DNA from: Acidobacteriaceae bacterium
GTDB taxonomy: Bacteria > Acidobacteriota > Terriglobia > Terriglobales > Acidobacteriaceae
Length of the DNA stretch: 64,000 nt
Reading direction: 5' to 3'
NCBI GenBank assembly: GCA_025462735.1
Contig: JAOAPC010000016.1
Coordinates: forward strand, 62,001-126,000
Shown here: positions 24,167 through 28,835 of the stretch, piece after piece
Layout: every line of letters begins with the position of its first letter
How positions within the stretch are numbered: position 1 is the first letter of the stretch
Translations under genes and position numbers: made by a program
The notes under the pieces: model-generated
The model's database searches: none
Told to the model about the DNA's origin: nothing
What the model saw: only the letters and a program-made list of their open reading frames with translations

Positions 24167-24571
24167 TCAAGGCTTCAGCCAGATTATCGGGAAGCCATGA
24201 CCAAGGCGGCGAAAATCAGAATCGCTGGTAACCACTGTCGCCTTGTGCTCAAGAGCCAGCGCTGCGACGAAGCTGTCAACGTAATAGAGTTTGTATCTGG
24301 ATTTGATGTCCGCAGCCTGGATGGCCCGTTGCGGAGTGACGTCTACCAACCTGAACGGCAGCGGATACAACGCGCTCATGATTGCAGCGGCGCGATCAGG
24401 TCCGTGCTCCCGCAGGATTCCGCCGTAGACTTCGCCGTAATTGACTGCTGACATCCAGATCTCAGCCCGCCCTCGAATGGCTTCCTTCAAGATCGCGTTT
24501 ACCCTGTCTGCGGCGGACTTTTTTTGCAAGAAGGCAAACAGAGCGCTGGCGTCAAACACGTAAATCTTCAC
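24167..24571 (-). CDS. vapC: PIN-domain toxin, VapC family
   Basis: MKIYVFDASALFAFLQ...NYGEVYGGIL...YYVDSFVAALALEHKATVVTSDSDFR: PIN acidic residues present; overlaps the upstream AbrB gene by 4 nt. Confidence 0.9.
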   Translation of the reverse strand: MKIYVFDASALFAFLQKKSAADRVNAILKEAIRGRAEIWMSAVNYGEVYGGILREHGPDRAAAIMSALYPLPFRLVDVTPQRAIQAADIKSRYKLYYVDSFVAALALEHKATVVTSDSDFRRLGHGFPIIWLKP

Positions 24572-24813
24572 GACTTGGACTTACCCTCTTTACGGTGCTC
24601 GTCTTCCCATTTCGCCAGTAAATCCGGGCCGTCGGCCAGGCAACCCATAACTCGATCAATGTACTCCTCGGTGACAGGTTGCAGGACAATTCGGCCAAAC
24701 TGATCTTCCAGAAACTTCACGCGGGTCCCAGCCTGAATACCGTGCCGGCGACGGAGTTCGGCCGGAATCACGAGTTGGCCCTTGGATGTAAATGTAGCAC
24801 TTATTTCCTTCAT
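24568..24813 (-). CDS. vapB: AbrB/SpoVT-type antitoxin, VapB family
   Basis: SATFTSKGQLVIPAELRRRHGIQAGTRVKFLEDQFGRIVLQPV: swapped-hairpin AbrB motif. Confidence 0.9.
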   Translation of the reverse strand: MKEISATFTSKGQLVIPAELRRRHGIQAGTRVKFLEDQFGRIVLQPVTEEYIDRVMGCLADGPDLLAKWEDEHRKEGKSKS

Positions 24814-25619: not shown

Positions 25620-25670
25620 TCAAGGAACAAACGCTTCGGTTGTGGCGTCGCACCGGAGCATTTTGTCCAT

Positions 25671-26795
25671 TCAGGCTGTGACCATCTTCGCGGACCAGCT
25701 CGTCACGAACTCTTCCAGACGGTCAAGTGCTTTGCCGAAGTTGTCTCCGGACGCGGCAAAACCGAAACGGAAATGCGAGGGCGCGTCGAAACAGTCTCCG
25801 GGCGCGAACAAGATTCCGCGCTCGGCGGCGGCCTTGCAGAAGGAACGGGTGTCCTCTCCGCTCACCAGCCACGGGAATCCCGTCATTCCGCCCTGCGGGC
25901 GGATCCAGCCGAAAACGTCGGTATGAGCGGCCATAAAGCGGTCCAATTGCTGAAGATTCCGGGTGGCGGCTTCCTGAGTTTTCTTGAGAACTACGGCGTG
26001 ATTGCGGATGGCGATCTCCGCAAGAATCTCGCCAGCGGTGTTGTTGCAGACCGAAAAATAGGCGCGCGCGGTCCAGTATTGCTCACGCCGCCGGGCGTCG
26101 CGCTCGATCATCCATCCGGTACGCGTTCCAGCTAGCGGGAAAGCTTTCGACAAGTCGTTGATCACCGTGGCGTGCGGCAGGCGCGCAGCGGATTGGCTTT
26201 CGCGACCGTGATAGATCGGGTGATAGACCTCGTCGCTAACGAGCTGAATGCCGCGCTGCGACGCGAACTCATGCAGGGCCTCCATTTCAGAGTCGCTCAT
26301 GGTGGCGCCCGTTGGATGGTGCGGACTGTTGACCAGGATCAGCTTCGTTCTCGAATCCGCGAGGCGTTTGATCTCGTCCAGATCAATTTGGAAGTTGTTC
26401 TCCCGGCGTACGCGGTAGAAACGTATCTCGATGCCCAGTGACTCGGGCAGCGCCGAGAACGTCGCGAAGCCGGGCAGCGGCAGGATCACGTTCGCGCCGG
26501 ATTCGGCGGCGAGCCACATAAGAACGGTCAACGCTTCGGATGCGCCGGTGACCACCTGCACGCAGTCCACGCTGACCCCCTGCATCTCGGCAATCGCTTC
26601 GCGCAAAGTGTCGGCACCTGCGGGGCGGCCGTAGACCACCTTGTGGTTCAGGTAACGCTCGCGAGCCTGCTCGCCACCGAGATCGAGGAGCTGGTTGGCT
26701 GTCCAAATCGGACCGGTGCTGGCGGCGAGATTGAACTCGATCCCGTGTTCGTAGGTGTCGAGCCAGGCGTCGAGGAGGAAGGGTTTCAACCGCAT
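25671..26795 (-). CDS. PLP-dependent aminotransferase class I/II
   Basis: VVTGASEALTVLMWLA, LVNSPHHPTGATM, SDEVYHPI, SKAFPLAGTRTGW (PLP lysine). Confidence 0.9.
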   Translation of the reverse strand: MRLKPFLLDAWLDTYEHGIEFNLAASTGPIWTANQLLDLGGEQARERYLNHKVVYGRPAGADTLREAIAEMQGVSVDCVQVVTGASEALTVLMWLAAESGANVILPLPGFATFSALPESLGIEIRFYRVRRENNFQIDLDEIKRLADSRTKLILVNSPHHPTGATMSDSEMEALHEFASQRGIQLVSDEVYHPIYHGRESQSAARLPHATVINDLSKAFPLAGTRTGWMIERDARRREQYWTARAYFSVCNNTAGEILAEIAIRNHAVVLKKTQEAATRNLQQLDRFMAAHTDVFGWIRPQGGMTGFPWLVSGEDTRSFCKAAAERGILFAPGDCFDAPSHFRFGFAASGDNFGKALDRLEEFVTSWSAKMVTA

Positions 26796-26948
26796 CAGGC
26801 CACCTCCGGGCAGATCGACGTTGCAGTTGAATATCCCGCGAATCTGCTTGTTACTCGATTCTAATCTAAGCCTATGCCCAAGAACGCGGCCGGCGCGCTG
26901 GCGGGGTGCCCCATTTCTCGCGTCTTCTGCGAGAAGTCGGCGCGGAAC

Positions 26949-27461
26949 TCATAAAGTCCAATCACTATATTTCAAGCGACGTTCAGCCGCATAATGCGGG
27001 CGATTAGTGAGCGCCAGGATGAGAGCAACCGCAGCCGTTGTAAATTGTCCCCTGGGCTCAACGTGTACATCTTTGTAATTCTTCGCAGAAAATTCTAAGT
27101 TCCCGCACAGGTCCTTCAATTTCTGGTCACTGAATGATGAGTGGACGTTGTGAGCGAAGACGTTTCGTATTTTCCGGACCTTTTCGCATTCCCGATACTC
27201 ATCTTCCGACAACACACCTAACGCAAAGGCCGCCAATGATCTCGCCGAAAGCGTGCCGAGCGGCGCATTAAACCCCTCCAGCAGACGACTTGTTTCCGGG
27301 TGATTCAGAAGAAAAGAACGTATGCATCGCCCCAAGAGATCTTCAATCATCGTCGCTGCAATGAGAGCGGCTCCGCGCTCTGACTCTTTGTTTAAAGCAT
27401 CAAGAAAAGCTTTAAACTCGCGCAAGTGAGGATAGGTTTCTTCAAATGGTCGCATAGACAT
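26949..27461 (-). CDS. MtlR/HEPN-like hypothetical protein
   Basis: Start moved to MSMRPFEETYPHLREF. ESERGAALIAATMIEDLLGRCIRSFLL...VRKIRNVFAHN resembles MtlR-family proteins and carries an Rx4H (RNVFAH) HEPN-type motif. Confidence 0.65.
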   Translation of the reverse strand: MSMRPFEETYPHLREFKAFLDALNKESERGAALIAATMIEDLLGRCIRSFLLNHPETSRLLEGFNAPLGTLSARSLAAFALGVLSEDEYRECEKVRKIRNVFAHNVHSSFSDQKLKDLCGNLEFSAKNYKDVHVEPRGQFTTAAVALILALTNRPHYAAERRLKYSDWTL

Positions 27462-27563
27462 GCTTACGCAGTTCAGCCCTCGACTTCTCTGCGGGGCCGG
27501 CCCACTCTTTGCGTTTTCAAAGGGTTGGGAATTGGCAGCGTCGATAAATAGTAGACTTTTTCC

Positions 27564-28709
27564 GTGGCGAACATAACACAAGGCGAGAAGCGCAGCCTCG
27601 AAGAGTTCCTGCAGATGGGTGGCGGGTACGTCCTCGACTTCTCGAACCGCACATTTCAGGAGTTTGTTTTCGAAAGCACGGGCTTGAATATCGACGAGGA
27701 GAGTGTTGGTGGCTCGGGGTCTAAGGCCAATCGCCTTAGGCACTTCTGGCGCAACCAACCAGACCATATTGTCGGCAAACTCCTGAAAGACCTGGTGGAG
27801 CACCGACATAATGGCGCACCACTAAAAGAGAAGTGTCAAAAAATCGCCGATCGGCTCCTCGAATCTGCACCTCTGCCTCCGGCACGCCGTTACTACGTTG
27901 CGAGAGCGCAGCCAGGAAGGCTCACGCTCCAAGGCATATATCGCAAACTACAACACTTGTATCTATTTTTTCGCGACAGGGACTATTTCAAAGAGACGGG
28001 GATTACGAAGTTGAGCCTTCCTGAAGCGATTAAGCACAAGGCGGCACTGTCTCTCTCGTTCGAAATGTTCCCAGTTACAAAATGGCCGACGCACGACGTG
28101 ACCGAAGACCACGTTTTTGAAGCGCTTGAGTTTCTTTATGACCACATTTCCCGCCCCGGAAAGCTCGTCGACATGACTACCGAAACAGGCTTCAACTACA
28201 CCGACTACGGTGGCTATGATGAAAGGGCCGGACGCGCTGAATTTAGGAAAGAGGTTAATGCGTTTCTTGCCGACTACAAGTCCGGGTTTGAATTGACGAA
28301 GGACGGGATTATTCTGGCGCTCGGTGCGGATGGGCTCCAGCATATCCTGGACGCAAAGATCGTCCCTTATGACGAGGCCAATGTTGATAGCAAGGTACGT
28401 AACGCCATCATTAAATGGAGAGACCGCCATCTGTCGCTTGAAGAAAAGAAAGCTGCAATACGAGAACTTGCTGACGTATTCGAATGGCTCAAGAAGACTA
28501 AGGGGCTATCAAAGATCCTAGATCGCAAGGACGATTCAGCAATATTCGAGCTCGCCAACAACTTCGCCCTGCGTCATCATAACCCGGACCAAAAGACGAA
28601 CTACGACCGAGTCATCTGGTACTCATGGATGTTTCATTTTTACTTGGCGACATACCATGCGGCAATTCGATTACTAATCAAACACGAGCAAGAGAGCGCC
28701 AAGCGGTAG
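27564..28709 (+). CDS. AbiJ-like / HEPN abortive-infection-type hypothetical protein
   Basis: 381 aa; FLQMGGGYVLDFSNRTFQEFVFESTGLNIDEE...GSGSKANRLRHFWRNQPDHIVGKLL plus ELANNFALRHHNPDQKTNYDRVIWYSWMFHFYLATYHAAIRLL at the C-terminus; family assigned from memory of similar proteins. Confidence 0.55.
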   Translation: MANITQGEKRSLEEFLQMGGGYVLDFSNRTFQEFVFESTGLNIDEESVGGSGSKANRLRHFWRNQPDHIVGKLLKDLVEHRHNGAPLKEKCQKIADRLLESAPLPPARRYYVARAQPGRLTLQGIYRKLQHLYLFFRDRDYFKETGITKLSLPEAIKHKAALSLSFEMFPVTKWPTHDVTEDHVFEALEFLYDHISRPGKLVDMTTETGFNYTDYGGYDERAGRAEFRKEVNAFLADYKSGFELTKDGIILALGADGLQHILDAKIVPYDEANVDSKVRNAIIKWRDRHLSLEEKKAAIRELADVFEWLKKTKGLSKILDRKDDSAIFELANNFALRHHNPDQKTNYDRVIWYSWMFHFYLATYHAAIRLLIKHEQESAKR

Positions 28710-28713
28710 AAGT

Positions 28714-28760
28714 TGGTAGAGGCGGCGGGAGTCGGACCCGCGTCCGATGGGCCTGTCACT
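28714..28760 (-). other. Orphan tmRNA (ssrA)-like or tRNA-like 3' end, possible integration-site remnant
   Basis: Minus strand reads CAGGCCCATCGGACGCGGGTCCGACTCCCGCCGCCTCTACCA: T-arm GCGGG-TCCGACT-CCCGC, 7-nt acceptor strand, discriminator A and CCA; no 5' tmRNA half alongside. Confidence 0.6.
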
Positions 28761-28835
28761 CGATTTTAAAGTGCGAACGTTGTCCGTGATACTCTGGTTT
28801 CAACGATTTCTCTTTCCTTCAAGAGGTCCACAATC

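Follow-up and report, generated by a model that had tools for sequence, protein, structure and literature searches.

The closest described relatives of the two genes analyzed here are proteins of, or linked to, the HEPN superfamily. In AbiJ-type proteins, an AbiJ_NTD4 domain (PF18863) is combined with a HEPN domain (Anantharaman et al. 2013, PMC3710099). MtlR, the repressor of the mannitol operon (PMC3710099), belongs to the MtlR/MltR family (PF05068; PDB 3brj and 6kcr), which has been placed in the same superfamily; ~60% of its members retain the HEPN motif, and the others have lost it (Anantharaman et al. 2013, PMC3710099). Those HEPN domains that lack the motif are regarded as mostly noncatalytic RNA binders (PMC3710099, PMC11077055). 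Plasmids encode a further type, annotated "abortive infection family protein," with an Abi_C HEPN domain (PF14355). PADLOC includes a candidate-defense model, PDC-S32 (PDLC04995); no paper naming PDC-S32 was found in a literature search.

We analyzed a 64,000-nucleotide stretch of DNA (the window) that lies within contig C8 of the 4.36-Mb, 24-contig genome of an Acidobacteriaceae bacterium. A sequence-only reading had proposed that a divergent pair of HEPN-motif genes at positions 26949 to 28709 forms a defense or toxin-antitoxin-like unit. The divergent pair is real, with a gap of 102 bp where about 100 bp had been claimed (Table 1). Gene A begins at the ATG at 27461, and its stop codon ends at 26949. 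A longer open reading frame (ORF) listed for gene A, with a start at 27809, would overlap gene B; that start is unlikely because the ORF would run antisense through B. Gene B begins at the GTG at 27564 and ends at 28709. This GTG is supported by an alignment with relatives of B, whose N termini begin at the same residue (MAEIT.. versus MANIT..). A consensus scan of the 102-bp gap found no promoter-like site. The two genes also differ in style from those around them, as had been suggested: A has a GC content of 48.5% and B one of 50.9%, compared with 54 to 61% in the neighbors (the left-hand aminotransferase gene has 61%, the right-hand gene has 57%, and the ftsA- and ftsZ-like genes have 59%). 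A separate gene pair in the window, located on the minus strand directly 3′ of ftsZ (24167-24813), encodes a MazE-like antitoxin and a PIN-domain protein according to Pfam and is VapBC-like.

Table 1. Positions of features of the locus in the window
Feature	Position	Strand	Description
Islet segment	25660..28777	none	Missing at the same place in congener G001; holds the aminotransferase gene, A, B, and the tmRNA end
Gene A	26949..27461	-	170 aa; MtlR-type HEPN protein with RNVFAH motif; predicted metal-independent RNase
A-B intergenic region	27462..27563	none	102 bp between divergent genes
Gene B	27564..28709	+	381 aa; AbiJ-like three-part protein
B residues 1-103	27564..27872	+	Mobile N-terminal domain, putatively sensory/regulatory; found in front of Abi_C HEPN or Mrr_cat nuclease in other proteins
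B residues 107-261	27882..28346	+	AbiJ_NTD4-like, via relatives L013 and L090 and hhalign
B residues 262-381	28347..28706	+	C-terminal helical HEPN-like domain with IRH motif (R337-H338), from hhalign
ssrA 3′-end copy	28713..28747	-	35 bp; partial match to RF00023; probable att scar

B itself lies below Pfam detection, with no direct match, and its anatomy was derived from its relatives. At almost every one of 19 genome loci, B residues 107 to 381 correspond to a free-standing protein of ~275 aa. Two divergent relatives, L013 and L090, score above the cutoff for PF18863 (AbiJ_NTD4), and hhalign matched B residues 107 to 261 to AbiJ_NTD4 (95.9%; E value, 5.8e-9). With 16 Pfam-defined AbiJ_NTD4 proteins from genomes of the phylum as the target, the B family aligned with AbiJ_NTD4-HEPN proteins over the full length of residues 107 to 381 (96.8%; E value, 2.7e-10); the controls, one profile that was reversed and five with shuffled columns, gave E values of 0.1 to 0.7. 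The AbiJ_NTD4 match fell to 74% (E value, 2.8e-5) when the most divergent members of the B family were removed, and the C-terminal part of B alone reached only 39% (E value, 3e-4) against the AbiJ_NTD4-HEPN proteins. B also matched PDC-S32 weakly (8.5e-7 over 100 residues), and its relative L013 matched the same model over nearly its full length (4e-48). In contrast to B, this model, of 301 positions, has no counterpart of the N-terminal domain. Profile comparisons thus support the earlier description of B as AbiJ-like, with a predicted AbiJ_NTD4 domain followed by a putative C-terminal HEPN-like domain. AlphaFold models of B had mean pLDDT values of 78 and 79, with the lowest values around the C-terminal motif. 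Foldseek searches of the PDB with the full model and with the C-terminal domain returned nothing significant, HEPN chains appearing only among the nonsignificant matches, and a PDB sequence search with the B profile likewise returned nothing significant. Comparison of the C-terminal domain of B with the A family and with Abi_C by hhalign was also not significant; the same method misses the link between the A family and Abi_C too, so that this negative result is uninformative.

B differs from AbiJ-type proteins in having an extra, mobile domain in front. A tblastn search with residues 1 to 103 matched 116 plasmid records and, among the matches listed, most are annotated as abortive infection family proteins. 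In these plasmid proteins, the same domain of ~100 aa, with 38 to 54% identity to that of B, caps an Abi_C HEPN domain with the motif RN(N/D/K)xSxAH or close to it (seven Abi_C-fused proteins examined; Pfam run on two). Their effector is an Rx6H HEPN domain (RNNxSxAH or close), whereas B carries an AbiJ_NTD4/IRH unit in its place. On a plasmid of Leptospira weilii, a B-type N-terminal domain is fused to an Mrr_cat nuclease. The sole other genome with the fusion found in B has it at locus L050, at 71% identity and with a frame break. Methylobacterium indicum plasmid pVL1_5 (L088, 6004-7601) carries tandem genes 5 bp apart, the first encoding the N-terminal domain with an Abi_C HEPN domain and the second encoding a stand-alone B-like protein. 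A search for Abi_C in the genome that carries A and B gave no match, but the control genomes gave none either, and the result therefore does not speak for its absence.

The description of A and B as a pair of HEPN-motif genes was correct for A, whose motif is canonical, but not for B. The spacer of the Rx4-6H motif is missing in B and in all 31 relatives aligned with it (32/32), and the LRHHNPDQ... stretch of B is instead the conserved IRH motif of its own family, N-x-x-x-(I/L/V)-R-H, in which R-H is conserved in 32/32 sequences. In this respect, too, B differs from AbiJ-type proteins with Rx4-6H. Among the 16 AbiJ_NTD4 proteins, one group ends in a HEPN domain with RN(K/R)xGGH or close to it, whereas in a second group, of 8 proteins, the position of RN..GGH is taken by GIRHA, GIRHG, or a similar sequence. 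In the phylum, this GIRHA/GIRHG-type subgroup is represented at L135, L136, L138, L144, L147, L148, L154, and L156. In the full-length profile alignment, R337 and H338 fall on the catalytic R and H, respectively, of RN..GGH, with the spacer deleted. In the weaker, nonsignificant alignment with Abi_C, the His is kept and the position of the Arg is occupied by another residue.

The R and H of the IRH motif are invariant across very distant relatives of B, and the R-H pair recurs in the second AbiJ_NTD4 group (8 proteins); together, these observations suggest a role in an active site. They argue against a reading in which the C-terminal domain is a noncatalytic HEPN derivative that binds RNA or a partner and controls or targets another nuclease, with the R-H pair being structural. 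Most relatives of B are solitary, with no obvious nuclease partner, which also speaks against that reading. On the other hand, the absence of the spacer in 32/32 sequences, the tandem arrangement with an Abi_C HEPN gene in M. indicum, and the literature view of motif-less HEPN domains as mostly RNA binders (PMC3710099, PMC11077055) are what a noncatalytic domain would lead one to expect, and we regard it as possible, although not likely. We tentatively propose a more far-reaching reading, with some way to go before it could be called likely: IRH may be a spacer-less second form of the HEPN active site, common to the B family and the AbiJ_NTD4 subgroup, and the N-terminal domain may be a plug-in sensor that B took over from the "abortive infection family" HEPN proteins to serve a different effector.

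Relatives of B are sporadically distributed in Acidobacteria, Chloroflexi, Bacillota, Nitrospirota, Spirochaetota, and others, and several Acidobacteriaceae metagenome assemblies are among the closest named genomes that carry one. The genes are usually solitary but are sometimes found beside restriction or other defense genes. At L067 (3819-8192), a B relative lies between genes for the type I restriction proteins HsdS and HsdR. Other neighbors include Mrr and DUF4365 (L064), a reverse transcriptase (L063), GmrSD (L098), AAA_21 and PIN (L053), PDDEXK_5 (L050), and SIR2/PIN (L093); these defense-like neighbors were picked as promising and represent an impression rather than an enrichment statistic. 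B matches PHROG 20667, and no match to B was found in viral contigs or phage records. The predicted link of B to defense rests on its family (AbiJ_NTD4 and PDC-S32), its sporadic distribution, and its neighbors. Since many relatives lie among housekeeping genes, B may have a role outside defense.

The proposal that A and B together form a two-gene module was not supported. Of 395 other genomes in a sample of the phylum, 8 carry B and 7 carry A, and none carries both. Among 100 relatives, with the own genome set aside, B was found in G082, G092, G085, and G045 (N-terminal domain only) and A was found in G003, G031, and G087, and these sets are also disjoint; a weak association between A and B could go unnoticed with so few carriers. 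Searches with both profiles found no A near ~30 B loci, including L050, and no B near 18 A loci, within flanks of 5 kb at some loci and about 1.5 kb at most others, with linkage over greater distances checked by presence alone. If A and B were a dedicated two-gene unit, they should have been neighbors in at least one of these loci, and the co-occurrence expected of such a unit failed to appear. The HEPN toxin-antitoxin pairs known to us are encoded in operons on a single strand, whereas A and B are divergent genes 102 bp apart. Because A and B are not together in the other genomes searched, they are probably two separate defense genes. It is accordingly unlikely that they form one divergent HEPN unit of the defense or toxin-antitoxin-like type, for example, one in which A supplies the HEPN site that B lacks, even though they are adjacent, face away from each other across a short gap, and are both off-composition. 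The M. indicum tandem, in which a B-like gene lies 5 bp 3′ of a gene for the N-terminal domain with Abi_C HEPN and the motif is kept, also favors such a unit in that it indicates that B-like proteins can partner with a HEPN protein. That tandem is itself a better candidate for a two-gene unit than A and B.

Gene A had been called MtlR-like with an RNVFAH motif, and both points were borne out. A matches PF05068 (MtlR) with 25.8 bits against a cutoff of 25.2 (1.2e-5) and is below the own cutoff of the NCBIfam model PRK11001. Its only sequence relatives in the PDB are the mannitol repressors 6kcr and 3brj (E value, ~0.002); A keeps RNxFAH, whereas the aligned stretch in these solved repressors is degenerate. 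In a 12-sequence alignment of the A family, R101, N102, and H106 of RNVFAH are invariant, as are R31 and R98 among other columns, and RNxFxH is present in all 7 further members of the family in the phylum. The match to the MtlR profile, combined with an Rx4-6H motif that has a polar residue after the R, supports classifying A as a HEPN protein of the MtlR branch, with its predicted catalytic motif intact.

Unlike the MtlR/MltR family as described, A has integrase- and phage-linked relatives. Integrase-like ORFs adjoin A relatives at L076, L081, L082, L087, and L111; the locus at L076, in the same genus, is next to tRNA-Ser and has a TIR-like gene, and the relative at L084 lies within a prophage tail-gene region (the integrase, TIR, and tail genes were identified by reading their translations rather than by searching for domains). 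A relatives are also present on viral contigs. At L084 (4404-5759), the A relative directly follows a small ORF with RNNLFH, such that two HEPN-motif ORFs are adjacent; no Pfam match was found for the first of these. On the basis of these comparisons, we regard A as a mobile member of the HEPN superfamily whose predicted active site is preserved. That A instead regulates metabolism in the way that E. coli MtlR does, outside any defense function, would agree with its Pfam/NCBIfam name and with repression of the mannitol operon by MtlR (PMC3710099), but it is improbable: no mannitol gene was noticed nearby, the motif is intact where that of 6kcr and 3brj is degenerate, and the relatives of A travel with integrase-like genes and phages.

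In G001, which belongs to the same genus, the sequences flanking the locus (up to 25659 and from 28778) are contiguous, with ~32 bp between them; the 3.1-kb segment is either extra in this genome or lost from G001. The aminotransferase gene of the segment has a close relative elsewhere in G001 and G006, and in G002 a different gene occupies the position of the islet. A tRNA-like 3′ end had been noted beside B; it is real and corresponds to the 3′ end of tmRNA on the minus strand. A whole-genome search showed that 28713-28747 is identical at 33 of 35 positions to the 3′ end of the genome's own intact ssrA (G000:C16:117249-117283; E value, 9e-9). The copy starts 4 bp past the stop codon of B and stops ~30 bp inside the right edge of the 3.1-kb segment. 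Genomic islands commonly integrate at tmRNA genes (PMC11915505, PMC3146451). The 3′ flank of ssrA is variable within the genus. On contig C16 of the same genome, ~6 kb directly after the intact ssrA (L018, 9283-15278) is missing at that place in G001; this block opens with a DUF4365-like ORF, named by eye.

The ORFs of 25660-28777 include no integrase gene, and the search of the genome turned up no further att copy apart from the intact ssrA on another contig. Judging by its identity and its place near the boundary of the segment, the tmRNA-end fragment is probably an integration (attachment-site) scar. At the other B and A loci, no tmRNA was detected with ARAGORN or by pattern matching, and the exact 32-mer of the tmRNA end had no match in viral contigs. 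The location of both A and B on foreign-looking DNA is supported. It is very improbable, and already refuted in part, that the tmRNA-like end arose by chance or is unrelated to ssrA and that A and B are native genes of odd composition. In favor of that reading, the match is just 35 bp long, its exact 32-mer is absent from viral contigs, and the islet has no integrase; against it, the genome-wide E value is 9e-9 with the ssrA 3′ end itself as the best match, the islet flanks are contiguous in G001, and the sequence 3′ of ssrA varies within the genus.

We consider it fairly likely that A and B are two independent defense-type cargo genes on a small foreign, mobile islet, with A being a predicted HEPN ribonuclease of the MtlR branch and B being a stand-alone protein of the abortive infection type. 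B appears to be built from a mobile N-terminal domain, an AbiJ_NTD4 domain, and a HEPN-like effector with IRH. The analysis establishes the gene structure, families, motifs, and domain homologies, along with the signs of mobility and the missing linkage, whereas sensing, RNase activity, abortive infection, and IRH as a working active site are inferred. The N-terminal module or modules of B would restrain the helical HEPN-like effector until a phage-induced signal frees it; the freed effector would then cleave or bind RNA, and growth would stop before phage maturation. A would be a separate RNase, acting on its own.

The locus is ordinary in kind, consisting of defense-type cargo, with one unusual protein, B. 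If IRH is catalytic, annotation of HEPN RNases on the basis of Rx4-6H misses a widespread candidate defense group. One N-terminal domain of ~100 aa is swapped among at least three types of effector: Abi_C HEPN, Mrr nuclease, and AbiJ_NTD4/IRH. Such swapping points to an infection-sensing module, the trigger of which could be found once for all of these effector types.
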